Of a stretch of DNA of 64,000 nt, positions 5,246 through 52,150 are shown one piece after another (within the stretch, counting starts at the first letter, position 1; every line of letters starts with the position of its first letter). The position numbers and the translations under genes are program-made. The notes under the pieces are model-generated. The model did not search any database, had not been told where the DNA came from, and saw only the letters and a program-made list of their open reading frames with translations. The DNA is taken from NCBI RefSeq assembly GCF_000283655.1, contig NC_016622.1, forward strand, positions 632,501 through 696,500. Reading direction: 5' to 3'. Source of the stretch: Azospirillum lipoferum 4B. Lineage in GTDB: Bacteria; Pseudomonadota; Alphaproteobacteria; Azospirillales; Azospirillaceae.

Positions 5246-5276
5246 TGTCGAATTCTCCTGTTCCAGAGGCCGATGG

Positions 5277-6716: not shown

Positions 6717-6847
6717 AGCCGGCCTCCTGCTTGAATTTTCCGCGCCGCTTCAGCGCGTGACCGAGCCCCTCCCTCCCACGCCGTCGCCCCTGGCTTTGCT
6801 GGGTCGGCGTTGTGCGGGGCTGGGGATGGGGCCAGTGTTCAGGCGGT

Positions 6848-6872
6848 CCCCCCTGCGCGGACGGCAGGGGGG
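6848..6872 (-). other. nifH-nifD intercistronic hairpin
   Basis: Perfect 9-base arms CCCCCCTGC and GCAGGGGGG around a 7-base loop lie about 30 bases past the nifH stop inside the 185-base nifH-nifD spacer. There is no T-run. Such a stem would favour accumulation of a nifH-only mRNA over full nifHDK, which fits the known excess of Fe protein; the effect here is inference. Confidence 0.6.
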
Positions 6873-6901
6873 CCGGTAGGCAACCGTCGCTACGCCCGGG
6901 A

Positions 6902-7873
<972 letters not shown>

Positions 7874-32435: not shown

Positions 32436-32688
32436 CGGTGCGGCGGCTTCCTGTCTGGCGGGCGGCTGGACTGCGCCGGAACATTGATTGGACGAACACC
32501 CTAAAGAAAGTGTAACCGGACGGAAACCAGGGCATTCCCACTGCGCCCAGATGCCGCGCCGGCCAACCGCTGCAAACGCCACCCTGCCATTCCCGCCGCT
32601 GGTCCCCCGCGTGCCGGTCGGCGGTTGCCGGAAGCGGCTCCATCCGTTAGGTAAGGGGCAACTTGGCAGCCGGATAGCGCTTATCCCC

Positions 32689-34149: not shown

Positions 34150-34404
34150 TCAGGTCTCCTCCGGTTCGCGCAGGCGCACACCGGGGCCGCCGGCCCGTTG
34201 TTCCCCGTCGGCCAGGAACACGACCCCCGCAGCCTCCAGCGCACGACGGACAGCCTCAACATTCTCGACCAAGCTTTTGCTCGTCCCTTTCGCCCCTTCC
34301 ATGCGCCGGATCGTTGGCCCCGACACGCCGGACTCCTCCGCCAAGCGGTTCTGCCTCCAGTCGAGCAAAGCGCGCGCCGCCCTGATCTGTGCCCCCGTCA
34401 GCAT
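34150..34404 (-). CDS. XRE-family small transcriptional regulator
   Basis: 84-residue helix-turn-helix protein. The domain fills the first 60 residues: TGAQIRAARALLDWRQNRLAEESGVSGPTIRRMEGAKG, a standard Cro/C1-type pattern. The C-terminal NVEAVRRALEAAGVVFLADGEQRAGGPGVRLRE is the tail common to this alphaproteobacterial subfamily. It is the first gene inside the left island border and may regulate island genes or its own promoter. Confidence 0.85.
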   Translation of the reverse strand: MLTGAQIRAARALLDWRQNRLAEESGVSGPTIRRMEGAKGTSKSLVENVEAVRRALEAAGVVFLADGEQRAGGPGVRLREPEET

Positions 34405-35514: not shown

Positions 35515-36683
35515 ATACCAGCGGCTTTGAAGTGTGACTCGTCACGGTGGATTCCCTTTTGGTCCGCCCTGTGATTCGCTGCCAGCTCTCGGAAGGAGGC
35601 GGGTATGGCGGCGATTGCGATCACGCGGCTGGAGCTGAGTTCAGCGGAGTTGCGCCAGCGGGCGGTGCGTTTTGGCGATCCGGATGTAGCGCGGCGCCTT
35701 CTCGCCCTAGCTCTGGTTTTGGAGGGGCGATCTCGCGAGGACGCCGCGCGGTCTTGCGGGATGGATCGGCAAACGTTGCGGGATTGGGTTCACCGCTACA
35801 ACGCCCAAGGCGTGGCGGGGCTGCGGGATCGTAAGGCACCGGGAGCCAAGCCGAAGCTGTCGGCGGAGCAGGAAGCGGAGGTGGCGTCCTGGGTCCGCTC
35901 CGGTCCGGACCTCGCCGAGGATGGCGTGGTTCGGTGGCGGCGGTGCGATCTGGCCCGCAAGATCGAGCGCCGGTTCGGCGTGGTGCTGGCCGAGCGCAGC
36001 GTTGGCGGGCTGTTGCGCCGTCTGGGGTTCCGTCGCCTGTCGGTGCGCCCCCAGCATCCTCAGCAGGATGGCGAGGCGCTCGAGGCTCACAAAAAAACTT
36101 TGCCGCTCTGGTTGCCGGCGCCCTCCCCGACACCGCCCGCGGCAAGCCGCTGGAGCTCTGGTGGCAGGACGAAGCCCGGGTCGGCCAGCAAGGGACCCTG
36201 ACCCGGGTGTGGGCCGCCAAGGGCAGCCGGCCACGCGCGCCCCGCGACCAGCGCCATAGCTGGGCCTACCTGTTCGGCGCCGTCTGCCCGAGCCGTGGCG
36301 CCGCCGCGGCCTTGGTCCTGCCCAAGGCCAACGCCGCGGCAATGACCCTGCACATGGCCGAGATCAGCGGCCAAGTGAGCGACGGCCACCATGCGGTGCT
36401 CATCCTCGACGGCGCAGGCTGGCACCAGCCGGGCGACAAGCTGGTCGTGCCCGAAAACATCAGCCTTCTGCATCTCCCGCCCTATTGCCCGGAACTCAAT
36501 CCGGTCGAAAACATCTGGCAGTTCCTGCGACAGAACCACCTCAGCCATCGCGTCTTCGATTCCTATGCCGCCATCGTCGAGGCCTGCTGCGAGGCGTGGA
36601 ACGCTCTCGCCCAGGCACCCGAAATCATTCGCTCAATCGCCTCACGCTCGTGGGCAGCGGTCAATGTCTAAAGCCGCTGGTAT
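35515..36683 (+). mobile_element. IS630-family insertion sequence
   Basis: About 1.17 kb bounded by 14-base perfect inverted repeats ATACCAGCGGCTTT (35515-35528) and its complement (36670-36683). TA-rich dinucleotides adjoin both ends, as expected for TA-targeting IS630 elements. It carries one transposase gene read through a -1 frameshift. It separates the IS21 remnant from the IS30 remnant. Confidence 0.85.
35605..36671 (+). CDS. IS630-family transposase, expressed by -1 frameshift
   Basis: The first frame from ATG 35605 encodes the helix-turn-helix part (MAAIAITRLELSSAELRQRA, QTLRDWVHRYNAQGVAGLRD). A run of seven A at 36091-36097 lets ribosomes slip back one base, giving HKKNFAAL and continuing into the second frame with the DDE catalytic domain: LWWQDEARVGQQG (D1), VLILDGAGWHQPGD (D2) and LPPYCPELNPVENIWQFLR (E). 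The joined product is about 355 residues. A-run frameshifting is well known in this IS family; a simple indel is the alternative. Confidence 0.85.
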
Positions 36684-36987: not shown

Positions 36988-38013
36988 TCATCGCGTCGGC
37001 GCTTTCTCCAGGGGAGCGGTGCCGGATAGCAGGAAACGCATGTCGATGCGCCGGTTCTGCTCTTGACCCTGTTCGGTGCTGTTGTCCGCGATCGCCCGTC
37101 CGCCAGCGTAGCCGCTGACGCCGAACACGGATCGCCCCTGGGCATTGGCCAGCTTTTCGAGATTGGGCCTGCCTTTCATCATTTCCGAGAACGCCTCCAG
37201 GGCGCGCCGCGTAGACAGCCGCCAATTGTTCGCAAAATCTGGATGGTGCTGGCCTGGGCGCACCTGTGTGTTATCGGAATGTCCCTCGATGAACACCGCC
37301 TCTAGGAACGCAGAGGATCCCGGTGGACAGTCCTGCGACGGGCGCGTCGCGCAATGGACTTCCCGTTCCATGATGCCGGCCAACACCTGTAGGGCTTGAG
37401 CCCCGCGGCGGTCCAGCTTTGCGTCGCCTTTCTCGAAAAGCAGACCGTCGGGGAGCCGCAGTACTCCCTCTTCCAACTCTGCGACCACCTCGAAGCGCTG
37501 CTCGCGCATCGTATTGACGATCCGGTTGAGGAGTTCCGCGCGCTTCTGCTTGTTCTTGGTGTAGAGGATCTGCTCGGTCGTGCGCGCATCCTGCATCTCG
37601 GAGAGCGCCCGTCGCGCCGTCGTTTCGGCGGAGCGCGCTGCGTCGATATCGTTGCGTGCCGCACTGAGCTGTGCGTCCAAGGAGGTCAGACGACTCTGAG
37701 CCGAATGCGCCTCACGCCGCGCCTCGTCGCGCTCGTCGACAAGCCGCTTGGCTATGGTGCGGGCTTCCTTCTGAGCCTCGGATAGTTCGTGCGCGAGGTG
37801 CTCGGCCCTTCCCCTTTCGGCCTCAAGGGCGTTCCGGACCCTGAGCATGTCCCCGTCGGCCCCCTGATTGTCGATGACCACACCAGTTAGCAAGAGGATG
37901 AAGATAAAGAGGATTCCTGTCAGCAGATCACTGACGGAGGCGAAATAGCCGTCCTGCTCGCCGGCTTCTCCGGCGGAGTGGCGCCGGCCGCGCTTCGATC
38001 TGATCGCCTGCAT
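36988..38013 (-). CDS. MotB/ZorB-like stator protein with OmpA peptidoglycan-binding domain
   Basis: Last gene of the seven-gene island operon, 341 residues. The single membrane helix (SVSDLLTGILFIFILLLTGVVI, about 27-48) has an Asp (D29) at its N-terminal end, where MotB and ZorB keep the ion-carrying Asp. A periplasmic coiled coil follows (about 55-160, rich in Glu/Arg/Ala). The C-terminal OmpA-like domain (about 185-332) contains FEKGDAKLDRRG, FIEGHSDNTQ, NNWRLSTRRA and GQEQNRRIDMRF, which should bind peptidoglycan. It follows the MotA/ZorA-like gene by 50 bases. Known relatives are the Zorya defence stator and the flagellar stator; this one has neither a flagellar nor a complete Zorya context. 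Confidence 0.88.
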   Translation of the reverse strand: MQAIRSKRGRRHSAGEAGEQDGYFASVSDLLTGILFIFILLLTGVVIDNQGADGDMLRVRNALEAERGRAEHLAHELSEAQKEARTIAKRLVDERDEARREAHSAQSRLTSLDAQLSAARNDIDAARSAETTARRALSEMQDARTTEQILYTKNKQKRAELLNRIVNTMREQRFEVVAELEEGVLRLPDGLLFEKGDAKLDRRGAQALQVLAGIMEREVHCATRPSQDCPPGSSAFLEAVFIEGHSDNTQVRPGQHHPDFANNWRLSTRRALEAFSEMMKGRPNLEKLANAQGRSVFGVSGYAGGRAIADNSTEQGQEQNRRIDMRFLLSGTAPLEKAPTR

Positions 38014-38063
38014 GGAACCTGCTCCCGAATTTCCCGACCGGGTTACGGATGGTTGTCATCCGA

Positions 38064-40169
38064 TTAAAGACCAAGCTTCTGCCGGATCGAGCTGAGGGGT
38101 GACGGCGCGGCCGCTTCGGGCGCAATGTGGATCACCGCCGGCTGCGCCGCGTCGCGGATGGCCGCCAGCACCGGCTCCAGTGAGGCCAGCGTCTCCACCA
38201 CCTCGGCCAAGCGGTCGATCGTGCGGTTCAAGGCGATTACCTGTTCGGCGGTTCCCGACAGCTCCCGGAACGAGGTGCCGGCCTCTGCCACGGCCTGCGC
38301 CGTTCCGGCCAGAGCGGCCAGCGGGGTTTCCAGGGACGCCACCCGTTGGCTTGAGGAGGTGAGCGCCTCGATCGGCGGCCTCATGCGAACGAGCACGTCG
38401 CCGGCATCCGCCAGCCCGGCGTACGAGGCTTCCAATGCGCCTAGACGCTGCGTCATCGCGTTGAGTGTGTCCAAGACCCGGTCGAGGCCAGACAGATGGT
38501 CCACCAACTCGCCGACCGCCTGCGCCGCCGCCTCCAACTGCTCCATCCGACCCACGGCCTGGGCGAGCGCCTTGAAGGTGTCGTGCATGGCGGCCACGCT
38601 CTCCGCCACCACGGTCACACGCTCGACGGCCACCCGGCCCTTGGACAGGCTTCCCGACGATGCATCGAACGCTTTTCTCAGGGCCGTGGTGCTCAGCTCG
38701 ATGCTGTGCGCCAGTTCCTCCATCGGCCGGCCGGTCGCGTTGACCTTGGCGACCAGCCCCTCAAGCCTGCCGAGGAACTCGGGCAGGGCCTGGGTCGTCC
38801 GCTCATCGGCATTGCGGAAGGCCCCGGCGGCGCGGCCGAGATCGGTGATGATCCGATCGGCGGTCGTCGTCAGCTCGCCGTTGAGCTGTGCCGACACGGT
38901 CTGGAAGTCGTTGTCGATCTTCTCCATGTGGCCGTGCAGGGCATTGCCCGCTTCGTCGAGCCGCGCCGCCAGCCGCGCCGCCGTGTCCGCCAACTGGCCT
39001 TCCATTTGCCTTGTCGCGTCAGCCGCGGATGCCGTGAGCGCCCTGCTGCCTTCCAGCAGGCCACCGATCATTCCGGCGCTGCCATCGTGCAAGGCCTTGT
39101 TCATGTGGTCCGCCGCAGCGCTGACCCGTTCGTCCAGTGCCTGTGTGCTCTGGTCGATGGCCTCCGCGAGGTTCTTGTCCATGCCCTCCACCGTCGCGAT
39201 GAGGCTCTGGAAGTTCCTGCACAGCGTTTCGAGCCGTTCGAGCAGGTCGGCCGTGCGGCTGCTAAGCGATTCCTCCAGCCGGCGGGTGAACGCGCCGATC
39301 ATCTTCTCCATGGAGTCGCGGCTCAGTTCGCCGACCTTGGCGGTCATCTCGTTCACGACGGTGACGAGCGGCTTCATCCCGTCGCCCACAGCCTTGGCGG
39401 TGCGCTCCGACAGATTCTCCACCAGATGATCGCGCCATTGTGTGTCGATCGACTGGAACACCGTGATCTGCCGCGTCAGCAGCGCGTTGGTTTCCGCGAT
39501 GAGCTGAATGGGGTGGCGCACGGGAATCCGGCTGTCGAGCAGGCGGCCGAGATCGTCGATCCTGGCCTCGATGCCATGCAGCCGGTGCCGAAGCCACCAC
39601 GAGAAGACAATGGACGCCAGAAGGCCGGCGATGGAGCAGGTGAACTTCATCGCTGCCGCGGACAGCAGGCCCTGCAGGGCGACGTGCGTCGCCGTCGCCG
39701 TCGCCGCCGACATGGTGCCGGTGGCGGCGACCAGAGCCAGAAGTAGGCTGATGAAGGTGAAGAGCAGCCCGGTGCCGACCAGATACCCGGGGACCGCCTG
39801 ATAGAGGGCGACGTTGATGTTGGCCTGACGCAGCAGGTCTATGGACAGGAACTCCGACGGTTTCACGGTGGCGACCACGGCCATGTCATCGCCGGTCGGA
39901 GGGGCCAGTGTGGCCTCGATCCCTATCCAGGCGCTCTGCAGTCCGGGCTTTCGCCGGAAAGCGTGCTCCATCGCATCCAGTTCGGGACCGAAGCGGGCCG
40001 GCGAGGCGACGGCCTCCACGATGCTGGCGGCACTGCGAAGATCGCTGTCAACCTCCTGGAACCGGGCCGATGCCCGCAGCCCGACCAGCACGCCGAACGC
40101 AACGATCAGGCTGGCGATGAGCGCGATGACCACTGGGTTGTTGGCGGCATGGATGACGGCGTCGAACAT
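38064..40169 (-). CDS. MotA/ZorA-like channel protein with ~500-residue cytoplasmic tail
   Basis: 701 residues. Three membrane helices are clear: VVIALIASLIVAFGVLVGL (13-31), VPGYLVGTGLLFTFISLLLALVAA (126-149) and AMKFTCSIAGLLASIVFSWWL (173-193). The last two match the MotA/TolQ/ExbB pattern (P.YLVG.GLLFTF, K.T.SIAGL..S). From about 200 to the C-terminus is an Ala/Leu/Glu-rich, largely coiled-coil cytoplasmic tail with apolipoprotein-like repeats. This layout is that of ZorA, whose long tail is thought to carry a signal into the cell. It pairs with the downstream MotB-like protein to make a probable proton-driven stator in the inner membrane. Confidence 0.85.
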   Translation of the reverse strand: MFDAVIHAANNPVVIALIASLIVAFGVLVGLRASARFQEVDSDLRSAASIVEAVASPARFGPELDAMEHAFRRKPGLQSAWIGIEATLAPPTGDDMAVVATVKPSEFLSIDLLRQANINVALYQAVPGYLVGTGLLFTFISLLLALVAATGTMSAATATATHVALQGLLSAAAMKFTCSIAGLLASIVFSWWLRHRLHGIEARIDDLGRLLDSRIPVRHPIQLIAETNALLTRQITVFQSIDTQWRDHLVENLSERTAKAVGDGMKPLVTVVNEMTAKVGELSRDSMEKMIGAFTRRLEESLSSRTADLLERLETLCRNFQSLIATVEGMDKNLAEAIDQSTQALDERVSAAADHMNKALHDGSAGMIGGLLEGSRALTASAADATRQMEGQLADTAARLAARLDEAGNALHGHMEKIDNDFQTVSAQLNGELTTTADRIITDLGRAAGAFRNADERTTQALPEFLGRLEGLVAKVNATGRPMEELAHSIELSTTALRKAFDASSGSLSKGRVAVERVTVVAESVAAMHDTFKALAQAVGRMEQLEAAAQAVGELVDHLSGLDRVLDTLNAMTQRLGALEASYAGLADAGDVLVRMRPPIEALTSSSQRVASLETPLAALAGTAQAVAEAGTSFRELSGTAEQVIALNRTIDRLAEVVETLASLEPVLAAIRDAAQPAVIHIAPEAAAPSPLSSIRQKLGL

Positions 40170-40201
40170 TTGCTTGATCCGATCGGATGAGTGGTGGCGG
40201 G

Positions 40202-41125
40202 TTACTGGCGCGGGAAGCGCAGGAGGCCCGGTTCCACCAACCGCGCCCGCTGCCCGTCGAGATCGGCCCGAGCTGCCCGGACGACGAGCGGTGTCTCCAC
40301 GTCAGTGAAGTCGATGTCGAACATCGGACCGAGCTGGCGGCGCACCCCTTCGCCGCGGTTGGCGGCCAGCGCTGAGAAGTTGCGCGTCAGCATCCGCCGG
40401 GACGGCAGGATCAACGCCTTTCCGGCGCTATGCGGCGGCAGCACCCAAAGGTCGGCGGTCGGGGAATCGACCAGATCCAGCCAGTCGGCCCCCCTCCATA
40501 CGGCGCGCAACGCCCGCCGCTGCTCCAGGAAGGCCTCGACCCGGTTCTCGTCCTCCATGACCCTGCGGTACTCGTCCATGAGGTCGGCCAGGACATCCAA
40601 CGATCCCAGGGAGATCGGCCAATGGTCGGCGAGGAGTGCCGGCGAGGGGGTGCCGAAGGCCGTGCAGTCCGAGGTCGTGCCGGTCGAGGTCATGCCGTCC
40701 GGCGCCGCGGCGCGAGGCTCGCGAACGCGGTTGGCCGACTGTTCCCGCGACCGCATCTCCCCCTGCTGGCGAACGTCCGCCCGAAGCACGCTCACTTGGC
40801 CTCCGAGGTCCTTCACCATTCCATTGATGTCCCTCACCGCCATATCCATGCCCTGAACCTTTTCGGTCAGCTTGTGCAGTGCACGGATGAGTTCGGCGTT
40901 CTCCGTCTCTAGGGTCCTGCGTTGCGGGTGCAACGTGCGCCAGACCGGCATGAACAGCGCGCCGACGATCACGCCCCAGAGGAAGGCAGCCAGAACGTAC
41001 GTGCCGGTCAGCCACGCACCGGATTCCGCCCCGCCGGACGGATCGGCGGCAAGCACGGCGGCCGGCGTGCCCGCGATGTACGCCGTTGCGCAAGCGCCGG
41101 CCATCAGGATCCGGCGCCCGATCAT
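40202..41125 (-). CDS. Membrane-anchored coiled-coil protein of island operon
   Basis: Not recognised; 307 residues. The N-terminus looks like a signal sequence (MIGRRILMAGACATAYIAGTPAAVLA), followed by one membrane helix (TGTYVLAAFLWGVIVGALFM, about 41-60) and a coiled coil (ETENAELIRALHKLTEKVQGMDMAVRDIN, about 74-120). The remaining cytoplasmic-looking half is globular (LADLMDEYRRVMEDENRVEAFLEQRRALRAVW), ending VVRAARADLDGQRARLVEPGLLRFPRQ. Its start overlaps the stop of the large actin-like gene by four bases (ATGA), indicating coupled translation. It may link the nucleotidases to the stator pair encoded after it. Confidence 0.75.
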   Translation of the reverse strand: MIGRRILMAGACATAYIAGTPAAVLAADPSGGAESGAWLTGTYVLAAFLWGVIVGALFMPVWRTLHPQRRTLETENAELIRALHKLTEKVQGMDMAVRDINGMVKDLGGQVSVLRADVRQQGEMRSREQSANRVREPRAAAPDGMTSTGTTSDCTAFGTPSPALLADHWPISLGSLDVLADLMDEYRRVMEDENRVEAFLEQRRALRAVWRGADWLDLVDSPTADLWVLPPHSAGKALILPSRRMLTRNFSALAANRGEGVRRQLGPMFDIDFTDVETPLVVRAARADLDGQRARLVEPGLLRFPRQ

Positions 41126-44100
41126 TGGATGAACTGCCTGTTCACGTTGAGATACGTGTTCAGCGCCCGCAGCGCGAGGATGAACGGCGGCTCGATGCCC
41201 ATGGTGCGGACAGCATCCTTGCCGCGCCGGAACATGGCGGCGGCCTGGTTGCGCTCAGCCACCAGGGCTTCGTTAACCTGGGTCTTGACGTGGGACTTGA
41301 TCACCGTGTCGAACGGCACGATCCGGCCCAGTTCGGACCTGTAGCAGGTGACGAAGCGTTCGAGCTGGCTGAGGTCGCCGCAACGCCATTCCGCCGTGGG
41401 GTCGAGCATGTCGGCGCGGCTGTCCCATGTGCAGGGCTTACCCCCGATCAGGATCGACTCGCCGATGATCGAGGGGGGCAGTTCCTCCTGGTTGTAGCGC
41501 AGTTCCGCGGCGTCGGCCCGGTCGATCAGCAGCCCGAAGGCGACTTCTTCCTTCGGGTTCTTGCTGTAGGACAGCGTCAGGTGCTGTTCGGGAACGCCGT
41601 TGTCCTTACCGAGCCCGGCAGCGGTGTTGAACAGCGCGGTCATGCGCTCGGCCACTGTGGTGCCGACGAGCTCCCGCATCATCAGACTGCCACGACCGCC
41701 GTAGCAGACCTGGATGGTGCCGGCGTCGGCGCTGCACACGCCAGAGCGGACCAGCGCCCCGTACACCAGTCCGACGTAGTACAGCAGGCCCGCCATCGCG
41801 AATTCGACGGTGGCGTGCAGTCCCTTCGCCCCAGGCGTTCCACCGATGGCCGCACGCTCCTTCTGGAAGGCCTTGCTGAAGGTGTCGCTGTTGACGAAGA
41901 CCTCGGTCGCGTTGAAGACTCTCTGGGTTTCCTGCACGGTCGTCTGGAACTCTTCGTACGCCTCGCGCAGCGACTGGCTCTGCCGCGTCAGGGCGAGGAT
42001 GTATTCCTTCTGCCGCGCGAGGTAGCCGATCACGATATCCCGGCCGGCGAAGCGGACCGAACTGCGCCACACGAGCCTGCGGGACTGCCACAGCGAGATG
42101 TCGGTGGTGCCGCCGCCCACGTCGAACGTCACCACGGTGCCGGTCAAGGCGATGCCGTGGCTGTGGAAGTACAGTGCGGCGCAGACGCTCTCCGGGCTGG
42201 TCCGGGTCTCATCGGGCGCCGGCACGTTCTGCTGCGAGGACAGCGCCGTCCCCAGCGCTTCGGGAATGATGCCGGTATAGTCGGCAAGCTGCTCGCCCTT
42301 GAACGCTTCGGGGTAGGAGAAGAACCAATGGACGTCGGCGGGATTCATCCCCTCCGCCGCGGCCTCGGCCATCGCCTCCAACGCCGCTTGGGCAAGGAAA
42401 TCCTGGCGGCGGTTACGGTCCTCGGGAATCTCCGACCATTTGAGATCGAAGCGCAACGCCGAGTTGCCGTCGCCGCGCAGCGCGTTCAGCGTTACTTGCA
42501 CATCGCGGACGTAGTAGATCCGTTCGGTCCACAGCGGCCAGCGCGGCATGCCCTCGTTCGGCAGGTTGCTGCGATCCTGAAGCACGGACTGGAACGGCAG
42601 CGGCCGGTCGCTCAGTGGCAGGAACTCCAGGGCATGCTCGTCCTGCGCCTCGGTGGCCTGCTCCTGGCCACGGAAGGGTGAGATGCAACGGTCGCGGAAG
42701 ACCACCCGCTCCGGCGGGCGGCTGTCGCGCCGGTAAAAGATGCAGGTGTTCGTTGTTCCGAAATCGACGCCAATTTTCCAGTTCGACGGCTTTCGCGGAG
42801 CGACCTGCTTGGCCTCCGCCGCCAGGATCAGGCCGACCGGCAGGCGGGTTTTCAGGCCGCCGGCCTCGACTGCGGCGACGGTGCAGAGGATCGCTTCCGG
42901 CTGCTGGGTCATGAGCACCATGGCCCGCACCTGTTGCCGCTCCTCGCGGAGCATGCGCCGGCGCTTGCCGTCGAGGATCGCCGTTTCCAGGCCCTGGGGC
43001 AGCCGGGCCGCGTTGGCGACGCGGTGCGCGGCGGGGGCGGCCGGCTTCAGGGCGGTCAGCAGGTCGGAACGCGTGACCGGGAGCGTCGGCGTCAGGCTCT
43101 CCTCCGGATTGACGCCGTAGAACAGGTAATAATAGTCCCAATGAACCGACTGGAAGTCGGGCCAGACCGACAGGCTGGCCGGCGATGATGCGCGGTGCGC
43201 CTTCGGGTAGAATCGCGACAGCTGGCAAGGACGGCTGTTCTCCCGGTCGTCCAGCAGTTCGACCCGAAGCATCACGCGATACCCGCCGCCCTCCGGCCGG
43301 ATGACGACGCGCTCCCGCAACTCCGACGGCGGGAACAGAAGGAGCGCCAGCGGCGTCAACGGCAGGGTGAAGGATTCCGCGGCACCGTGCGTGGTGATGG
43401 CGCCTTCGCTCAGATGGCACAGGGCCGGCGTGAAGAGATCGTCGATGCCGATGGCGAGGAAGCCGCCCGCCGCGGCCCCGTCGATAACCCTCTGGCGGTG
43501 GGCCGGGTGGCGCAACGCCGTCTCAAGTGTGTCGGTGTCCCAAGCGCGGATGGCCGAGGAGGTGCTATTGAGGAGGCTGGGGAGCCGCTCGTCCAGCAGC
43601 AGAATGCCGGCGAGTGCTTTCCGAAACTCGGCGCGCGTCGGGATCGCGGTGTCGTAGCGCTGGCGCGGAATCAGCGCTTCGAAGTGGTTGATGAGGGAGT
43701 AGAGAGGCGGCGGCAGTTCGAATTGCTGCGGAACCGAGTACACCTCGGTGTCGTCCAGCGACAGACGACCCTTCTGCCCCATGGCCTTGGCGAACGTCCG
43801 TTCGAGCGCTTCGGCGAATTCTTCGAGCCGGGTCAGCAGCTGCGACAGGCGCCGGTCCCGCGGGCCATCGGTTTCCAACGGGCGCAACCCCTGCTGCAGA
43901 GCCTTTGCGTAGCGGGCGATGAGCCCGAGTTCCTCGGGCGTCAGGTTGTCGGCGCACAGCGGATCGTCCAGGCCGCCGCCCGGCGACGTGCGCCATTCGA
44001 TCGTCGCGTCCAGCGCCGCCTCGTGCCCTCGAACCGGACAGATGAGGACGTGCGGCACGATCATCGCCAGCGGCCGGCCGTCGAGCGTGAGGAAGCCGAT

Positions 44101-44526
44101 CTTCGACCATGTCTGCGTGGCGACGAGCGAACACGCCGGGCGCAGGCTGTGAGCGACCCTCACGAACATCGAGCTGCCGTCATCGGGCTCCGCCAGCGCC
44201 TGGACATCGATGAGGCGGCTCTGCAAGGCCATGCCCCGCTGCGCTGACAGCGCAAGCAGGCCGATTAGCCCACGCCATTCGCGCACGCTGCGGCGATGCA
44301 GGGGATGGCTGACGTCGAGCAGCGCGCTCTCGAACACCATCGCCTGTGCCCACACGTCGGGAATGGACAGCAGATCTTCGTCACTTTGCCCTTCCGGCTG
44401 CTGTGCGAGACACTGGGCCAGCTTTCCAAGCCACTCGTAACCCGTTTCCTGGACCCAGACGCCTGGCGTTTCCGGCGAAGGGAGAGCGTCGGAATTGAGG
44501 GGAGAGAGCAGATGCTGCGTGGGCAT
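41122..44526 (-). CDS. Large protein with C-terminal actin/Hsp70-like ATPase domain (SrfB-like)
   Basis: 1134 residues, no membrane helix. The N-terminal 575 residues are unrecognised. The C-terminal half has actin-superfamily motifs: phosphate-1 loop KIGVDFGTTNTCIFY at about 584-598 and phosphate-2 loop FDVGGGTTDISLW at about 801-813, with later blocks (GLLYYVGLVYGALV, QVCYGGRGSLM) in the expected order. Size and layout resemble proteins annotated as virulence factor SrfB. Such domains bind ATP and can act as chaperones or filament formers. Start ATG 44526 has AAGGAT upstream and lies 48 bases after the tubulin-like gene. Confidence 0.85.
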   Translation of the reverse strand: MPTQHLLSPLNSDALPSPETPGVWVQETGYEWLGKLAQCLAQQPEGQSDEDLLSIPDVWAQAMVFESALLDVSHPLHRRSVREWRGLIGLLALSAQRGMALQSRLIDVQALAEPDDGSSMFVRVAHSLRPACSLVATQTWSKIGFLTLDGRPLAMIVPHVLICPVRGHEAALDATIEWRTSPGGGLDDPLCADNLTPEELGLIARYAKALQQGLRPLETDGPRDRRLSQLLTRLEEFAEALERTFAKAMGQKGRLSLDDTEVYSVPQQFELPPPLYSLINHFEALIPRQRYDTAIPTRAEFRKALAGILLLDERLPSLLNSTSSAIRAWDTDTLETALRHPAHRQRVIDGAAAGGFLAIGIDDLFTPALCHLSEGAITTHGAAESFTLPLTPLALLLFPPSELRERVVIRPEGGGYRVMLRVELLDDRENSRPCQLSRFYPKAHRASSPASLSVWPDFQSVHWDYYYLFYGVNPEESLTPTLPVTRSDLLTALKPAAPAAHRVANAARLPQGLETAILDGKRRRMLREERQQVRAMVLMTQQPEAILCTVAAVEAGGLKTRLPVGLILAAEAKQVAPRKPSNWKIGVDFGTTNTCIFYRRDSRPPERVVFRDRCISPFRGQEQATEAQDEHALEFLPLSDRPLPFQSVLQDRSNLPNEGMPRWPLWTERIYYVRDVQVTLNALRGDGNSALRFDLKWSEIPEDRNRRQDFLAQAALEAMAEAAAEGMNPADVHWFFSYPEAFKGEQLADYTGIIPEALGTALSSQQNVPAPDETRTSPESVCAALYFHSHGIALTGTVVTFDVGGGTTDISLWQSRRLVWRSSVRFAGRDIVIGYLARQKEYILALTRQSQSLREAYEEFQTTVQETQRVFNATEVFVNSDTFSKAFQKERAAIGGTPGAKGLHATVEFAMAGLLYYVGLVYGALVRSGVCSADAGTIQVCYGGRGSLMMRELVGTTVAERMTALFNTAAGLGKDNGVPEQHLTLSYSKNPKEEVAFGLLIDRADAAELRYNQEELPPSIIGESILIGGKPCTWDSRADMLDPTAEWRCGDLSQLERFVTCYRSELGRIVPFDTVIKSHVKTQVNEALVAERNQAAAMFRRGKDAVRTMGIEPPFILALRALNTYLNVNRQFIQ

Positions 44527-44574
44527 CAGGCGGTATCCTTGGGCAGAACCGAACGACGGGTTGGCCGGAAGAGG

Positions 44575-46128
44575 TCAGGTCGGGCGTATCAGGGGCTTCC
44601 CGTCGCCTAGCCTGCACTGGTCGAAGAGCGCTTCAACGAATGCCGACAGCCCCTCGGAACCGGCCGGGGGGACGGCCGCGTTGAGATTGTCGAGAATTCT
44701 GTCGAACGATGCCGTTCCCGGGACCGAGTCCGTCACCAGATCGGCGAACACGGGTTTGGCGCGCCCGAACAGTTCGTCCTGAAGGGCGAGCAGCCCTCGC
44801 TCATCCGGCACGCCGTCGGCGCCGACGGCATTGTCGTTGAACAGGTCGACGGCCAAGCCGTCGTGACTGCTGCAACGAACCAGCGTGACCATCCAGCGCA
44901 GGAACGCATGGCAATAGCTGTCCAGCTTCGTCCGGGCGAGCTGCGCCGAATCGCCGTCGAGCTGGGCGTGCGTGTCGGCGAGAAGCCTGCGGTACCAGGA
45001 ATGCCGCTCGTAGCGCCAGTGGACGGAGCGGTCGAGCAGCGGCGCGTAGATGGCACGAAAGGCTACGGCGAAGCGCAGCAACCCTCCCAAGGCGGCTTTG
45101 ACGTCGCTGCTGGCGCCGGGGGGGCTGGCGATAGCGGGCAGATCGTCCCAGGTCAGGGTTGGCGCCGCATTTCTGGCAATGTGCAGTACCTTCGCATTGG
45201 GAATGGCGCCGCCGTGGAAGAAGCCGGCAGCGGCGAGCGCGCCGTAGAGTTCCGGAAGCAGGGGCGGGTTGCATTGCGCCCTTCCCCCCGTGCGCGACGC
45301 GGGGAGAGGCAAGAGCCGGGGCCAGCCGAACATGAAAAGGTTGTCGAACGCCGGCCCGGCCGGCCCCGGCTTGGACAGCAGATCCTGGTAGTGTTCGAGC
45401 GCGCCCCGCGACTGATGGATGAAGGCTCCGGAATGCGCGATGATCGCCCCCGAATCCGTTGGCGGGGCGTAGCTGAAATAGGGAAGGGCCAGCGCCCCCG
45501 AGATCGTCACCCGGGGTGAGTTCAGGGCCTCCCGAAGGCGGCGTGCGATGACCGGAAAACCCGACGCCCCGGTTCCACCGAAGACCGACCCGACCAGGAA
45601 GATCCGCACGTCGCGGTTCTGGTTCGCATCCTGCTGAGCGGCGAAGACGTCCTGCCAGAACTCGTCGTCCGATTCCACCCGTGCACCGATGACGGCCGCG
45701 CCGATCGCCGGCCGCGCCCGGAACCCATGCGACAGATCCATTTCCTGCTCTTCGCGCAGGTAAAGAGCGTCGAACAGATCGCGGCCGTCGTCCTCCATCC
45801 GCGAGTGATGGAAGAGATCCCGCATTGAAGTGATTCCGGCCGGAACCTGCGACCAGGATGCCCCGGACACCGCCGTCTGTACCGAGGTGCGGAACAGCGG
45901 AGCCTTGGGGGACAACTGGCTGTTGCCGGGATTGCGCAGCGTTGCGCGTGTAACCTGATACAGCTTGAGCAGGTCCTTCGTGCGCTCAAGGTTCCCGTTG
46001 CTGGAGTCCGGGTCCACGAAGCCCATCCACAGCTCCTCGGGTCCCAGCCCCGCGGCGCAGAGGTGAAGCATCGCCTCGCCGCAACGGGCGCCGGTGCCGC
46101 CGACGCCGATGAAATAGCACTTGGTCAT
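44575..46128 (-). CDS. Tubulin/FtsZ-superfamily-like protein
   Basis: 517 residues from ATG 46128, overlapping the preceding gene's stop by four bases (ATGA). The N-terminus KCYFIGVGGTGARCGEAMLHL (about 3-22) gives a nucleotide-binding glycine loop, and LVGSVFGGTGASGFPVIARRL (about 178-198) carries the tubulin signature loop GGTGAS. Further family-like features are FVDPDSSNGN and a long helical C-terminal half. It is too divergent to be a division FtsZ and lacks membrane helices. I place it among tubulin-like (Tubulin_2-type) proteins; GTP binding is expected, polymerisation is possible. It has an actin-like partner in the same operon. Confidence 0.82.
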   Translation of the reverse strand: MTKCYFIGVGGTGARCGEAMLHLCAAGLGPEELWMGFVDPDSSNGNLERTKDLLKLYQVTRATLRNPGNSQLSPKAPLFRTSVQTAVSGASWSQVPAGITSMRDLFHHSRMEDDGRDLFDALYLREEQEMDLSHGFRARPAIGAAVIGARVESDDEFWQDVFAAQQDANQNRDVRIFLVGSVFGGTGASGFPVIARRLREALNSPRVTISGALALPYFSYAPPTDSGAIIAHSGAFIHQSRGALEHYQDLLSKPGPAGPAFDNLFMFGWPRLLPLPASRTGGRAQCNPPLLPELYGALAAAGFFHGGAIPNAKVLHIARNAAPTLTWDDLPAIASPPGASSDVKAALGGLLRFAVAFRAIYAPLLDRSVHWRYERHSWYRRLLADTHAQLDGDSAQLARTKLDSYCHAFLRWMVTLVRCSSHDGLAVDLFNDNAVGADGVPDERGLLALQDELFGRAKPVFADLVTDSVPGTASFDRILDNLNAAVPPAGSEGLSAFVEALFDQCRLGDGKPLIRPT

Positions 46129-46640
46129 GATTGTCTCCGCATGAACAGCCGGTTGCGGAAGAGGACAGACGGCCGCATCGTCGGCCGTGTGGCAAGGAAC
46201 GTCGCCAAGTAATAGAATAAAAGGAACAAGACCAGCGCCATGAGGACGATGTGGGTCGTGTAGCTGGTGCGCATTGCGTAAAAGAGCTGGTCGATCTCGT
46301 AATAGACGATGCCGGCGGTGACGATCATGAAGAACAGGGTGTTGAAGACCCAGAACGGCGACAGTGTCGGGACGTCCTTCGGGTGGTGCACGGATTTGAA
46401 AAGCGCGCATAGAAGCCAGACGAGCGATGCCAGGATGGCGGTGCCGACGCTGGACACGGTGACCACCCCCAGCCCGAAGCGCAGATCCTCAAGGGCGAAG
46501 CGCAACGACCTTCCATTGATCTTTTCGTCCATCAAGGGAGCAAACAAGCCGGGATCCAGCATGTTGAGCAGCGCAACGATGGTGACGCCCGCAAGGACCT
46601 GAATGAACACGGTCAACAGGATGGGACTGAATTTCTTCAT
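46125..46640 (-). CDS. Four-helix membrane protein of island operon
   Basis: 171 residues, not recognised. Four membrane helices: ILLTVFIQVLAGVTIVALL, VVTVSSVGTAILASLVWLL, FWVFNTLFFMIVTAGIVYY and HIVLMALVLFLLFYYLATFL. There is a short basic C-terminus (TRPTMRPSVLFRNRLFMRRQS). It lies 12 bases after the vWA lipoprotein gene, and its stop overlaps the tubulin-like start, so all three should be translated together. A membrane dock for the tubulin-like protein is a reasonable guess only. Confidence 0.78.
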   Translation of the reverse strand: MKKFSPILLTVFIQVLAGVTIVALLNMLDPGLFAPLMDEKINGRSLRFALEDLRFGLGVVTVSSVGTAILASLVWLLCALFKSVHHPKDVPTLSPFWVFNTLFFMIVTAGIVYYEIDQLFYAMRTSYTTHIVLMALVLFLLFYYLATFLATRPTMRPSVLFRNRLFMRRQS

Positions 46641-46652
46641 CGCTGCCTGTCC

Positions 46653-48206
46653 TCAGTCCAGTTTGAAAGCTATGCGGAACGCGTGAATACGCTCCGCCGA
46701 GTAATTGTCGCGGATAATGCGGACCATCAGATCGTTCAGCGAGAGCAGGTTCAGGGTCGGGAACAGAAACCGGTCGGCGCTCTCGGCCGCCTCGACCTTT
46801 TCTGGTTCGGGCGCCGCCTTGGATCCCTTGGCCGGCAAGCGCGTGGTCAGCTTCTTTTCCCTTTGCGCCAAGCGGTCGAGCAGAGCCTTTTCCTGGCTGG
46901 CGTCATACCCCCATTCCTGAATCCAATGCCGCACGGGCGGTGCCGGCTGGAGAGCGGGGATCATGACGGCGGCGTCCAGCGTGTAGGGGACCTTCGGGCG
47001 CAAGCCGTATGTCGCCGCCGGTTGGGGGAAGACGTCAAACGACAGCCGATCCGTTTTGCCCTGGGTCAACCGGAGAAGACCGGGATGATCGTCGTCTTCG
47101 ACCCAGCCGTTCTCGCACCCATGCCGGCCGTCCCCGAAGAAATGAAGGGTGGATTTGGCCGATGCTTGGGTGATGTCCGGCACGGCGGCCTGGGCGGCAT
47201 CCCAGCCGGTTTTGGTGTCCTCCTGTTCCAGCGTCACCTCGGCGCCGCCGGCGCGCCGGCCGATGGCGATCTGCTCGACTGCGGTGTGCGGCACGTCCTT
47301 GGACAGCAGCGATGCCGTCGCGGCTCCGTCACGCAGGTCGATCCGCTGCACCCAGCCCCGCTTGGGCAAGGGGCGGCGCGAGTAGACGGCTAGGTGATGG
47401 CTGCCGGCGGGCATGCCTTCCAGAACCTCGGACCGCAGGGTGTCGTACATGGACCGAACCCTGGCGTCGGGGCCGACCAGCAGCACGTAGAAGGGCCGGA
47501 AGCCGTTGGTGAGCTGAACCCCGCTGGGCGTGGTGGCGAGGTCGAACACTCGCCCGTTGAAAGGCGCCTGCACGCCGATGATGGCTACGGTCAGATCCTT
47601 GTGCAGGATGTCGGCCAAAGTTTTGCGCAGCGGGCCCGAATCCCCGCCGTGCACCTCGGCCGCGCTCAGGAAAAGGTCGCTGACGATAACGCTGGTCGTG
47701 TCCGATTCCGAGGCCGCACGCCGCAGCACCTCGTGCAGATGGGTGGCGCCGGCCGACACTTGCGTGTTCGAGCCGCCGGCCTGGGTCCGGTAAAAGCCGT
47801 CGCTGAGGATCTCGGCTTCCAGCTTGCCGGAATGGGGGCGCGGCTCAATGCCGGTGGCGAACCGGAAGACCTGCATGCCTATAGCCGACCGCGCGAGGCT
47901 CTGCGGCAGGAAGCGGAGGGCTTCGAGGTAGGGCGATTCACCCCGGACGGTGACAAAGCCCCGCATCGAGCCCGATCCGTCGAGGTAGAGATGAACCGGG
48001 CCGCCTATGTCCACCGCACCGCGCGGGAGCATTGCGGACGCTTCCTTCGGGGGCAGGGGAAGGCATCCCGGCCGCTTGTCCTGACAGGCCGCCGCAAAAA
48101 GGCATATGGCGCCGAGAAGGCCGAACCGCACCGTCGTTCGCCGCCACGTCGCTGCACGCGGTGCGGCGTGGCCGGGGCTGTGGAGCCTGTTACCGGAGGT
48201 TCCCAT
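46653..48206 (-). CDS. vWA-domain lipoprotein, first gene of island operon
   Basis: 517 residues. A lipoprotein signal VRFGLLGAICLFAAAC gives a lipobox with Cys41; because 25 residues precede the hydrophobic stretch, a GTG start at 48131 is a real alternative to ATG 48206. The von Willebrand A-like domain begins near 70 with the metal-site motif HLYLDGSGSMRGF (DGSGS at 76-80) and has VSAGATHLHEVL and TTSVIVSDLFLS in later MIDAS positions. The rest is beta-rich and unrecognised, ending in LLSLNDLMVRIIRDNYSAERIHAFRIAFKLD. It should sit in the periplasm anchored to a membrane and bind a protein partner. Confidence 0.85.
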   Translation of the reverse strand: MGTSGNRLHSPGHAAPRAATWRRTTVRFGLLGAICLFAAACQDKRPGCLPLPPKEASAMLPRGAVDIGGPVHLYLDGSGSMRGFVTVRGESPYLEALRFLPQSLARSAIGMQVFRFATGIEPRPHSGKLEAEILSDGFYRTQAGGSNTQVSAGATHLHEVLRRAASESDTTSVIVSDLFLSAAEVHGGDSGPLRKTLADILHKDLTVAIIGVQAPFNGRVFDLATTPSGVQLTNGFRPFYVLLVGPDARVRSMYDTLRSEVLEGMPAGSHHLAVYSRRPLPKRGWVQRIDLRDGAATASLLSKDVPHTAVEQIAIGRRAGGAEVTLEQEDTKTGWDAAQAAVPDITQASAKSTLHFFGDGRHGCENGWVEDDDHPGLLRLTQGKTDRLSFDVFPQPAATYGLRPKVPYTLDAAVMIPALQPAPPVRHWIQEWGYDASQEKALLDRLAQREKKLTTRLPAKGSKAAPEPEKVEAAESADRFLFPTLNLLSLNDLMVRIIRDNYSAERIHAFRIAFKLD

Positions 48207-48894: not shown

Positions 48895-49910
48895 GTGTCG
48901 GAGATCGCCATGCCCCGTCGCACCAAAAGCCAGCACTTCCTTCTCAGCGCCGCGGCGCGCACGCTGTCGCTGGCGACCGTGCTGCGCCTGTCGGACACGG
49001 AAGCCGAGACGGTGTTCGCGGCGATCCGCTGGCCGGAGACGAACGGGCGTCCCGTGTGCCCGGCCTGCGATTGTGATGCGGTGTACGACTGCCGCCGGCC
49101 GAGCGGTGCGCCTCGCTGGCGCTGCAAGCGGTGCCGCAAAGACTTCTCCCTCACCTCGGGCACGCTGTTCGCCTTCCACAAGCTGGCGCTCCGGATGTAC
49201 CTCGCCGCCGTGGTGATCTTTGTCAACGAGGTGAAGGGCAAGGGCGCGCTGCCGCTATCGCGTGACCTGGGCGTCCAGTACAAGACGGTGTTCGTGCTGG
49301 CCCACAAGATCCGCGAAGCGATGGCCGCCGAGAGCCGCGGCGTCGTAATCGGCGGCACGGGCAAGGCAGCGGAGATCGATGGGGCCTACTTCGGCGGCCA
49401 CACGTCCGCCCGGAGAACCGCAAGACGGAGCGCAAGGACCGCCGGCTTGCTATCAACCAGACCGGCAAGCGCCGGTGTGTCGTCACCATCCGCGAGCGCG
49501 ACGGCCGCACCCTGACCGGCGTGTTCCCGTCCGAGGACGCCGCCGGCAGCTTCATCCGCTCGCGCGTCACCAAGGGCACCGAAGTGCATGCGGACGAGTC
49601 CAGCGCCTGGAACGACCTGCACGCCCGCTACCCGATGCACCGCATCAACCACCAGGACGCCTACAGTCAGGACGGCGCCTGCACCAACGGAGCGGAATCC
49701 TTCTTCTCGCGCATCCGCCGCGGGGAGATCGGGCACCATCATCACATCTCGGGCCTTTACCTGCACCGCTACGCCCAGGAAGCCGCCTTCCGGGAAGACC
49801 ACCGCCGGACCAGCAACGGCGAGCAGTTCCGTGCTGTCCTCGCCCTGGTGACGCGCAATGACCCGTCAGTGGACTTCTGCGGCTACTGGCAGCGCGCTTA
49901 CGCGGCGTGA
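48895..49910 (+). pseudogene. IS1595-family (ISXO2-like) transposase, frameshifted
   Basis: The first part encodes the N-terminal zinc-finger region (VCPACDCDAVYDCRRPSGAPRWRCKRCRKDFSLTSGTLF) and the start of the catalytic domain up to AAEIDGAYFGGH. At about 49400-49404 protein-like sequence moves to another frame (VRPENRKTERKDRRLAINQTGK) and continues through VHADESSAWNDLHARY and HRINHQDAYSQDGACTNGAESFFSRIRRGEIGHHHHISG to 49910. A one-base loss explains the change. No slippery run is present, so I call it a pseudogene rather than programmed frameshifting. Terminal repeats were not found. Confidence 0.8.
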
Positions 49911-50411: not shown

Positions 50412-52150
50412 GGCCCATCCGCATTCCCGATGCAGATCGAAGCGAGGATGAGCACATAGAGGGAACGATTTTCCTCCAGAGCCCCGGTTTCCTTGTCCAA
50501 ATCACTGCTTTCGTTGCTCCCAACCGGCCTTGTCGTCGATCAGGTTTCCGTCGACGCTGATCGGGTGGCGATCACGGCCCACATGCGGGCCACAAGGGCG
50601 GCCTGTCCGCTGTGCCATTGCCCCTCCGCACGCGTCCACAGTCGGTACTCCCGACATCTGGGCGACCTGCCGTGGCAGGGCCGGGTTGGCGACCTCCACC
50701 TGCAGGTTCGCCGCTTCCGGTGTGCGGTGGCGGACTGTCCCCGCCGCATCTTCGCCGAGCCGCTGCCCACGGTGGCGGCCCCTCGGGTCCGGCGCACCCG
50801 GCGGCTTGCCGAGGCGCAGCGCGCCATTGCACTGAGTGCCGGCGGAAATCCCGGCGCCCGGCTGTCCACACGGCTCGCCATGCCGGTCAGTGGCGACACG
50901 CTGCTGCGCCTGATCCGCGCGGTGCCCGTGGTGCCGGCCCCACCGCCTCAAATCGTCGGGATCGATGACTGGGCTTGGCGCCGGGGTAAGCGCTACGGCA
51001 CCATCATCGTCGATCTCGAACGCAACCGCCCCATCGACCTCCTGCCCGACCGTCAGGCCGACACCGTTGCCGCATGGCTGAAAGCCCATCCTGGTGTCGA
51101 GATCGTCGCCCGTGACCGTGCTGGCGCCTACGCCGATGGCGTCCGTCAGGGCGCGCCCTCCGCTACCCAGGTCGCGGATCGCTGGCACCTCCTGCACAAT
51201 GTGACCGACACCTTGCGGGAGGTCCTCACCGGCCATCACCGCGACCTCCGAGCCGCCGCCAAGCTGGCTGTCGCTCCGCTGGGCAAAACCGAGCAGGACC
51301 CGCACCTGCTGCTGTCGGATGAGGTTTCCAGTCCACCGACCCGGCGAGAGCAGCGGAGCGCTGCCCTTCATGCCGCCCGCCATGCCCGCCATGACGAGGT
51401 CGTCGCGCTGAAAACCCGCGGGTGGTCGCAAACGCGTATCGCTGAAACGCTCCACCTCGATCGCAAAACGGTGCGGGTGTGGCTGCGGTCCGGGCAGCCG
51501 CCGGCATGGCGTCAGCCGGCCAAGGGGAGCCGGCTTGATCCGTTCCTCGATCACCTGCAGCAGCGCTGGGATGACGGCTGCCACAACGCCGCTCAGCTCT
51601 GCCGGGAGATCAAATCCCTCGGCTTTACCGGTCAGCGGACACTGGTTCGGGACTGGGCACGGCCTCTGCGACAGGCCGTAGGAAGTGCAGCATCCATGGC
51701 ATTGGCATCATGGCCGGCACCGTCGCGCCGACGGGCAGCATGGCTGGTGATTGCCGACGAGCATGAGGTCGACCCGACCGAACAGGCCTTCGTCTCGGCC
51801 CTGATCGCCCGATCGCCGGAACTGGCACGGACCATCACCGTGGCCCGTGCCTTTCGGGCGATGGTCCGGGGACAACGAGCCGGAGAGTTGGACAACTGGC
51901 TGTTGACGGCGGACGGCACCCCCTTGGCGGGCTTTGCCAATGGTTTGAAGAGCGACCTTGCCGCTGTACGGGCGGCTCTGTCGCTGCCGTGGAGCACCGG
52001 GCCGGTGGAGGGGCAGATCAGCAGGCTGAAGACGATCAAGCGCATGATGAACGGCCGCGGCGGCTTCGATTTGCTGCGTCATCGCGTGCTTGAGGCTGCC
52101 TGAATGCACAAGCCTAGGCTGCTACCCTGCACCGGGAATGCGGATGGGCC
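50412..52150 (+). mobile_element. ISL3-family insertion sequence
   Basis: About 1.74 kb. Left end GGCCCATCCGCATTCCCG followed by ATGCA (50412-50434); the right end is its inverted copy at 52128-52150 with one mismatch in 23. No 8-base target duplication is seen (left flank TGAAGTTT, right flank CAGCGCCG), so one flank was probably lost after insertion. Its right end lies inside the integrase gene. Confidence 0.88.
50493..52103 (+). CDS. ISL3-family transposase
   Basis: 536 residues if the TTG at 50493 is used (MSKSLLSLLPTGLVVD); this start is uncertain. The N-terminal zinc-finger has CPLCHCPSARVHSRYSR and DLPWQGRVGDLHLQVRRFRC..CPRRIFAE, typical of ISL3. The catalytic DDE region includes VGIDDWAWRRGKRYGTIIVDLE, ARDRAGAYADGVRQGAPSATQVADRWHLL and a C-terminal STGPVEGQISRLKTIKRMMNGRGGFDLLRHRVL. 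Complete and probably active. Confidence 0.93.
   Translation: MSKSLLSLLPTGLVVDQVSVDADRVAITAHMRATRAACPLCHCPSARVHSRYSRHLGDLPWQGRVGDLHLQVRRFRCAVADCPRRIFAEPLPTVAAPRVRRTRRLAEAQRAIALSAGGNPGARLSTRLAMPVSGDTLLRLIRAVPVVPAPPPQIVGIDDWAWRRGKRYGTIIVDLERNRPIDLLPDRQADTVAAWLKAHPGVEIVARDRAGAYADGVRQGAPSATQVADRWHLLHNVTDTLREVLTGHHRDLRAAAKLAVAPLGKTEQDPHLLLSDEVSSPPTRREQRSAALHAARHARHDEVVALKTRGWSQTRIAETLHLDRKTVRVWLRSGQPPAWRQPAKGSRLDPFLDHLQQRWDDGCHNAAQLCREIKSLGFTGQRTLVRDWARPLRQAVGSAASMALASWPAPSRRRAAWLVIADEHEVDPTEQAFVSALIARSPELARTITVARAFRAMVRGQRAGELDNWLLTADGTPLAGFANGLKSDLAAVRAALSLPWSTGPVEGQISRLKTIKRMMNGRGGFDLLRHRVLEAA

Follow-up and report, generated by a model that had tools for sequence, protein, structure and literature searches.

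A ZorAB-like stator pair encoded beside tubulin-like and actin-like proteins in an island operon of Azospirillum lipoferum 4B

What would a stator of the ZorAB kind do in one operon with a tubulin-like and an actin-like protein? The question is raised by a minus-strand block of seven genes (36988-48206) in a stretch of 64,000 nucleotides from Azospirillum lipoferum 4B (GCF_000283655.1, NC_016622.1, positions 632,501 to 696,500), which as a whole is called the window here. In the order of transcription, the genes encode a lipoprotein with a von Willebrand factor A (vWA)-type motif (gene 1), a small membrane protein (gene 2, TM4), the tubulin-like protein (gene 3), the actin-like protein (gene 4), a membrane coiled coil (gene 5) and the stator subunits ZorA and ZorB (genes 6 and 7). 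We know of no motor of the MotAB/ZorAB kind that is coupled to tubulin or actin filaments, and no report of such a coupled stator was found in the literature searched. Our preferred answer, to which we would give about even chances, is that the operon encodes an envelope-spanning, ion-driven cytoskeletal filament machine, here carried as island cargo.

A preliminary description, made from the sequence alone, had proposed a seven-gene operon with gaps of 50 bases or less and two four-base overlaps. Both the coordinates and the spacing check out, the successive genes lying 12, -4, 48, -4, 32 and 50 bases apart. The tubulin open reading frame (ORF) as listed starts at 46410; the likelier start is 46128, which yields both the four-base overlap and the N-terminus of the family. 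The motifs named at that stage are present on direct reading, namely DGSGS after a lipobox-like cysteine, GGTGAS, VDFGTTN, FDVGGGTTD and the aspartate within a helix of an OmpA-type protein. Moreover, the literature searched does not describe these genes as a housekeeping or secretion operon, the case that would have spoken against the description.

The stator pair was identified by profile matches. Gene 6 matches PADLOC ZorA (E 8.3e-50) as well as the NCBIfam model NF033914 (ZorA_1; E 1.3e-53), the latter at 182.3 bits and thus below its 190-bit cut-off, and gene 7 matches PADLOC ZorB (E 5.4e-63). Among solved chains, gene 6 matches 8qyd_A (ZorA; 2.4e-6) and 8vvn_C (a MotA/TolQ/ExbB-domain protein; 8.5e-8), and gene 7 matches 8vvn_B (a MotB-related protein; 7.6e-16); we take 8vvn to be a Zorya structure. 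The Pfam OmpA match of gene 7 (21.5 bits) lies below the cut-off of 27.2, and its matches to NCBIfam MotB models are all below the curated cut-offs. The MotA/ZorA-like protein and its Asp-in-helix partner, and with them the ion-motor pair that the preliminary description placed in an envelope-spanning powered set, are therefore supported. In an alignment of rows hand-chosen from core loci, FtsZl1 operons and alphaproteobacterial Zorya-type loci (see below), Asp29 of ZorB is found in 22/22 rows, and Thr138 and Ser179 of ZorA in 23/23. The ion-path residues of the window stator agree with those of Zorya structures, in which the conserved ZorB Asp packs on a ring of ZorA Ser/Thr residues (PMC11890865, in excerpt). 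As far as its sequence can tell, nothing about the window motor points to inactivity.

The cytoskeletal pair comes from genes 3 and 4. Gene 3 matches Pfam Tubulin_2 (E 4.5e-7; 29.9 bits, curated cut-off 27) over residues 167-226 only, and is predicted to have an FtsZ fold, its model showing an FtsZ/tubulin GTPase fold with a glycine-rich nucleotide loop. Gene 4 matches Pfam MreB weakly and, judging from a model with an actin-fold domain, would hold an actin-type ATPase fold; the residues of its actin-type phosphate loops are invariant or nearly so in 11 aligned rows. The tubulin-like protein and the actin-like ATPase claimed earlier are thus upheld. The SrfB likeness mentioned in the preliminary description found no support: no SrfB family was among the Pfam and NCBIfam matches up to E 0.1, a comparison with family profiles. 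In VIA structure matches of gene 4, which compared residues ~580-1010 only, FtsA accounts for nine of the ten top rows; the N-terminal 580 residues are modelled largely at low confidence.

For genes 1 and 5 no family match was obtained up to E 0.1 in Pfam, NCBIfam or PADLOC, and gene 2 gave only a weak match to a domain of unknown function. Since gene 1 likewise has no vWA profile match and no solved-structure match up to E 1, its putative vWA domain is assigned from the motif: of the vWA lipoprotein described previously, the DGSGS motif stands, and the family-profile and structure matches are missing. Asp76 and Ser78 are invariant in an alignment of 12 proteins, and the lipobox pattern occurs in 20/25 proteins of the gene 1 type, including that of the window. 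A DxSxS-like pattern occurs in 14 of the 25, at an implausible position in one of these 14. An outer or periplasmic sensor role is proposed for gene 1. In plasmid and SAR11 loci, relatives of TM4 lie where it does in the window; in further loci TM4 was called from position and helix count. A coiled-coil protein occupies the gene 5 position in cyanobacterial, SAR11 and G292 loci. The coiled-coil relatives share a C-terminal domain (82 ORF matches across loci, duplicates and training rows counted). The C-terminal end of gene 5 resembles them by eye; a profile built without the window protein did not recover it at E 0.01, and the extension of the shared domain to gene 5 was dropped for that reason. 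In cyanobacterial core loci, several genes have a common C-terminal domain with an end pattern like KPAKV...W.L.E.G.IEF (for example L008:13297-16289), joined to varied N-termini; this domain possibly serves as an interaction module there.

Genes 1-5 form a core that recurs in cyanobacteria, on chromosomes and plasmids alike, in SAR11 and in two further proteobacteria; genes 1-4 are also found in Prevotella and viral-collection contigs. This answers a doubt in the preliminary description, that the genes might not be conserved together in other genomes: the core is, and the motor accompanies it only sometimes. These two proteobacteria are G292 and G939, where TM4 was called from position and helices, as was the coiled coil of G939. 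A tblastn search of plasmids with the tubulin gave six records, four of which were retrieved. Three cyanobacterial plasmids hold the vWA-motif gene, TM4, tubulin, actin-like and coiled-coil genes in a single block (the vWA-motif gene of the Gloeothece plasmid being divergent), and a Prevotella plasmid record has vWA-motif-gene, tubulin and actin-like matches, the first two of which are separated by a three-helix ORF. Eight core loci were found by the genome contig search, in SAR11 (3), cyanobacteria (4) and one metagenome-assembled genome titled Chloroflexaceae that grouped with the cyanobacteria (L012). A spread to Chloroflexi is not claimed, because the phylum search for L012 gave the same genomes as that for cyanobacterium G003; the title is perhaps wrong or the bin mixed.

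With the actin profile at E 1e-10, matches were found in 16/146 cyanobacteria, in 19/194 of an overlapping draw and in 2/398 Pseudomonadota; at E 1e-5, 9/385 alphaproteobacteria matched, two of them at full length (all tallies count the centre genome). The weak matches of the other seven (23-27 bits) were excluded; their frames of 419-436 residues are, by length, presumably FtsA. When the actin gene was the bait, a tubulin gene lay alongside in 23/28 stretches, the others being L005 (at a contig edge), L069, L071, L073 and L074. Conversely, the tubulin bait gave an actin gene in 9/9 retrieved stretches, as a weak match in some. These counts include close strains and repeats, and the pairing of the two genes exceeds chance. 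Some cyanobacterial core loci have a second, shorter actin-like gene downstream (L064:13443-15641, L066:4949-7879, L001:729-3239), and the core-bearing Gloeothece plasmid carries two annotated TIR-domain genes (L001:11408-13102), with WD40 genes near.

A ZorA-like gene was detected in 4/32 of the stretches with both tubulin and actin genes. In the near-identical viral-collection contigs L034 and L035, ZorA and then ZorB come straight after the actin gene; in L068 (cyanobacterium G522) both follow the coiled-coil genes on the same strand, and in L062/L075 (cyanobacterium G403) ZorA is on the divergent strand with ZorB adjoining. With the window, this makes five cases in three settings. Among 24 actin-gene genomes, 10 have a ZorA-like gene anywhere, and in two of these 10 it adjoins the core. 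By chance, 0.066 ZorA-like genes would fall within 10 kb of the core across 20 cyanobacterial genomes; two were observed (P 0.002; P 0.06 for at least one, if both cases are a single event). In a tree of the membrane part of ZorA (23 rows), the window protein groups on a long branch with eight Zorya I-type rows (support 99/98), and the cyanobacterial core motors fall in an FtsZl1-linked clade (support 100/100); the ZorB tree resolves less. As these are different clades, the window ZorA and the cyanobacterial ones would have joined the core separately, and core and motor are likely to have come together independently two or more times, perhaps three. Another ZorAB-like pair of the cyanobacterial clade (L076:6771-9419) has no tubulin or core match in the 17 kb around it, its genome having the actin gene on a different contig.

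Two other motors that are not beside the core, in L077 and L082, lie in operons with a DxTxS-motif gene and a longer tubulin-like gene, and a direct Tubulin_2 search was therefore made. It matched 22/117 cyanobacteria and 4/299 Pseudomonadota, as well as 3/14 named control genomes. The FtsZl1 sample drawn from it comprises 30 loci (L118-L147), from 27/29 rows of the cyanobacterial search and 3/4 rows of the Pseudomonadota search; both G498 rows (L082 and a core tubulin) and the core tubulin of G001 were left out. ZorA profiles were made from the window, L034, L068 and L062, and ZorB profiles from the first three, FtsZl1-linked sequences being excluded. Both ZorA and ZorB were found in 16/30 loci, all 16 from the cyanobacterial search, with the motor genes after the tubulin gene on the same strand (L140 has an additional ZorA-like ORF). 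The DxTxS-motif gene is upstream in 15 of the 16, the contig of L129 ending before it; vWA, tubulin, ZorA and ZorB are what we refer to as the FtsZl1 quartet. Six examples were compared with PADLOC and all six have ZorA or ZorB likeness; the NCBIfam matches of the FtsZl1-operon motors are all below the cut-offs, and one ZorA has none.

The FtsZl1 family was described with vWA, OmpA, kinase and GTPase genes, and a membrane-remodelling function was predicted for it (Makarova and Koonin 2010, PMC2875224, in excerpt). The published OmpA gene would be, in the motor-bearing loci, the ZorB half of the motor. This identity is not stated in the literature searched, which includes few subscription papers and excludes the additional files of PMC2875224; the word MotA occurs 0 times in the main text of that paper, the additional files again not being covered. 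Elsewhere, Tubulin_2 proteins serve as a divergent, sparse outgroup (PMC9871819, in excerpt). The profiles of core tubulins and FtsZl1 align (hhalign probability 95.6%, 155 columns); those of the two vWA-motif families do not (0.8%). With 517 residues, gene 3 does not have the extended coiled coil and helical C-terminal domain of FtsZl1 (~1000 residues) and is therefore a relative rather than a member in the 2010 sense.

How might the parts work together? In the filament machine that we favor, ZorA and ZorB would make up an ion motor of 5:2 stoichiometry, with ZorB tethering it to the peptidoglycan. Much as FtsZ and FtsA do, the tubulin-like and actin-like proteins would assemble as a pair on the cytoplasmic side of the inner membrane, and TM4 and the membrane coiled coil would hold this assembly there. 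Ion flow would move the long ZorA tail, which would trigger or pull the assembly, and the lipoprotein would sense or grip the outer envelope. The output might be that the envelope is reshaped or sealed locally once phage entry, for instance, has disturbed it, and the core could also work without a motor or with motors of other lineages. More tentatively, and with the balance of probability tilted against it, the operon could belong to a widespread unnamed class in which tubulin-like assemblies at the inner membrane (here also actin-like ones, in FtsA/FtsZ style) are powered or triggered by a peptidoglycan-anchored, ion-driven stator of the ZorAB type. This class would have the FtsZl1 quartet and the heptet of the window as two of its branches, and Zorya as a relative in which nucleases took the place of the cytoskeletal output.

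Several observations count against the filament machine. No ZorA-like gene is seen in 28/32 core stretches (some of which are short), and 14/24 actin-gene genomes have none anywhere at E 1e-5. The ZorA and ZorB pair is also missing from 14/30 FtsZl1 loci, including all three from Pseudomonadota; L125 has the tubulin and DxTxS-motif genes without it, and L137 has one ZorA-like ORF, at the edge. The tree program flags the ZorA of the window, and especially that of L034, for long branches that make their placement unsure. Foldseek ranks Mbl, Hsp70 and MreB first for gene 4, with FtsA not at the top, and the FtsA likeness from VIA has small margins and a weak gene 4 model behind it. Finally, the vWA domain of gene 1 is a call from the motif only. 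The motor is thus optional, since it is not seen in those 28 core stretches or those 14 genomes; ion power appears to matter where it is present, because 16/30 FtsZl1 loci have the ZorA and ZorB pair and the motors beside the core come from two or more ZorA clades.

The operon sits in an island of ~19.7 kb bracketed by 51-nt repeats, together with transposases and a small helix-turn-helix gene, and is its largest cargo (Table 1). The repeats and the integrase agree with the earlier claim of island cargo. No catalytic-domain family was matched for the integrase-type protein at the thresholds used. The AFG1-like ATPase is, we presume, of the ZapE family, and the 3' end of its gene, copied at the other border of the island, is a possible integration hot spot. 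A DNA search of 200 alphaproteobacteria gave a best match of 84% over 0.9 kb, too distant for an empty-site comparison. The window also contains nifH and a nitrogenase component-1 gene (3686-7798, from Pfam), which makes nitrogen fixation by the host probable; the plasmid match that covered this nif region best was 78.8% identical.

Table 1. Features of the operon and of its island, in window coordinates.
Feature	Position	Strand	Remarks
Gene 1	46653..48206	-	Lipoprotein; lipobox-like AAAC, Cys41; vWA-type DGSGS motif
Gene 2	46125..46640	-	Membrane protein, 171 residues, about four helices (TM4)
Gene 3	44575..46128	-	Tubulin/FtsZ-like protein, 517 residues
Gene 4	41122..44526	-	1134 residues: N-terminal part of ~580 residues and predicted actin-fold ATPase domain
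Gene 5	40202..41125	-	Membrane coiled coil, 307 residues
Gene 6	38064..40169	-	ZorA-like stator subunit, long coiled-coil tail
Gene 7	36988..38013	-	ZorB/MotB-like stator subunit; Asp29 in helix; OmpA-type domain
AFG1-like ATPase gene	32488-33861		3' end is the left repeat
Left 51-nt direct repeat	33811..33861	+	Likely attachment site, the 3' end of the AFG1-like ATPase gene
Small helix-turn-helix regulator	34150..34404	-	Near left end of island; PF13560 24.6 bits (cut-off 27), PF01381 22.8 bits (cut-off 23)
DDE_3/helix-turn-helix-type transposase pieces	35605..36671	+	PF13358 9.9e-27; PF13551 3e-17
IS1595-type transposase pieces	48895..49910	+	PF12760 6.8e-10 on 48895-49515; 49521-49910 by position only
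ISL3-type transposase	50493..52103	+	PF01610 1.2e-24
Integrase-type protein	52114..53247	-	Arm-type DNA-binding domain, PF13356 7.8e-19; adjoins right repeat
Right copy of 51-nt repeat	53494..53544	+	86% identical to left copy

The strongest competing explanation, plausible though on balance less likely than not, is a Zorya-like anti-phage system, in which ZorAB would sense the envelope disturbance caused by injection and the core, in place of nuclease-type effectors, would form filaments that close the injection site, keep DNA out or incapacitate the cell. The grouping of the window ZorA with Zorya I-type rows is in its favor, as is the place of the operon as the main cargo of an integrative island, and the motor is probably of the Zorya I lineage by its sequence. 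The core is also found on plasmids, on a G292 contig with integrase-like and resolvase-like ORFs and beside relaxase-like genes in L033 (both by eye), and its spread is patchy, as the two full-length matches in 385 alphaproteobacteria (centre genome counted) illustrate. The commonest Pfam families listed among 137 neighbours of core loci are Uma2 (4) and DNA methylase (3), with two resolvases and two integrases. Against it, none of the PADLOC families listed, the best 25 of 142 matched with methyltransferases at the top, occurs in more than three of the 137 neighbours (neither scan having a control set), the cyanobacterial and SAR11 surroundings look largely ordinary by eye, and the core actin gene is mostly without an adjacent motor in the 16/146 cyanobacteria that have it (centre counted). 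TerD-like genes had been noticed by eye near L033, and the one tested gave no Pfam match at 0.01; others are near a cyanobacterial core at L067:1400-2783 (placed by eye, with one TerD match among the 137 neighbours, 6.2e-74).

The anti-phage explanation is further weakened by the lack of a nuclease and of ZorC-like or ZorD-like genes in the operon: none of the seven genes, to which the PADLOC scan was limited, matches ZorC or ZorD, and the neighbours of the window ZorAB are the core and a transposase. Because ZorC and ZorD are not beside the motor, the window does not hold a complete Zorya I system. A ZorB1 search matched 9/220 alphaproteobacteria and 0/14 controls, and no core genes were found in the eight stretches retrieved of these nine. 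Five of the eight have two large ORFs after ZorB at the ZorC/ZorD position, two of these five being cut by contig ends. L157, the one tested, has SNF2 and Mrr domains; for the remaining rows the Zorya I-type label stands for ZorB1 likeness and ORF size.

A slightly less probable explanation follows the proposal of Makarova and Koonin for FtsZl1: the operon would serve membrane remodelling or vesicle formation, and the stator would be only an occasional helper. The published context of tubulin-like, vWA and OmpA genes (PMC2875224, in excerpt), the alignment of the two tubulin profiles and the many core stretches without a motor alongside would suit it; the ZorA and ZorB pairs of the FtsZl1 loci and the core-adjacent motors, which come from two or more ZorA clades, would not. 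This and the anti-phage explanation are overlapping rivals of the filament machine. Least probable is that the core and a Zorya I remnant are unrelated neighbours joined on the island, as could be suggested by the likeness of the window ZorAB to Zorya I, the transposases on both flanks and the ZorC and ZorD not seen beside it, and as is contradicted by the single strand and the 32- and 50-base gaps, by similar arrangements with other ZorAs in L034/L035 and L068, and by the excess of ZorA-like genes near cyanobacterial cores.

If the filament-machine proposal is correct, it supplies the FtsZl1 family, proposed in 2010, with a source of power and with a topology that can be tested. One reviewer of the original proposal objected in print that the tubulin is cytoplasmic and the associated parts are periplasmic or in the outer membrane (PMC2875224, in excerpt). 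A membrane-spanning stator that joins the two would offer an answer.

Among known systems, motors of the ZorAB/MotAB kind serve in flagellar rotation, gliding, type 9 secretion, nutrient uptake and Zorya defence (PMC11890865, in excerpt). The window pair is of the same stator type as MotAB, TolQR and ExbBD, but its ZorA has a long Zor-type tail and cytoskeletal partners, and among the other genes of the operon we noticed none of the flagellar, Tol or Ton kind. Zorya type I is resembled in the ZorA and ZorB matches to PADLOC Zor families and to the solved ZorA, as well as in the tree, while the window motor adjoins a tubulin/actin core instead of ZorC or ZorD. Like the FtsA/FtsZ pair, the window encodes, by prediction, an actin-fold and an FtsZ-fold protein side by side; the VIA rows show 9-15% identity with FtsA and 15-21% with FtsZ, and gene 4, whose FtsA likeness comes from a weak model, has ~580 extra N-terminal residues. 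FtsZl1 operons likewise combine tubulin-like, vWA-motif and OmpA-type proteins and, in over half of the loci sampled, both ZorA and ZorB. They differ in that their FtsZl1 proteins mostly have 1000 residues or more, against 517 for gene 3, and in that the window adds the actin-like protein, TM4 and the membrane coiled coil.

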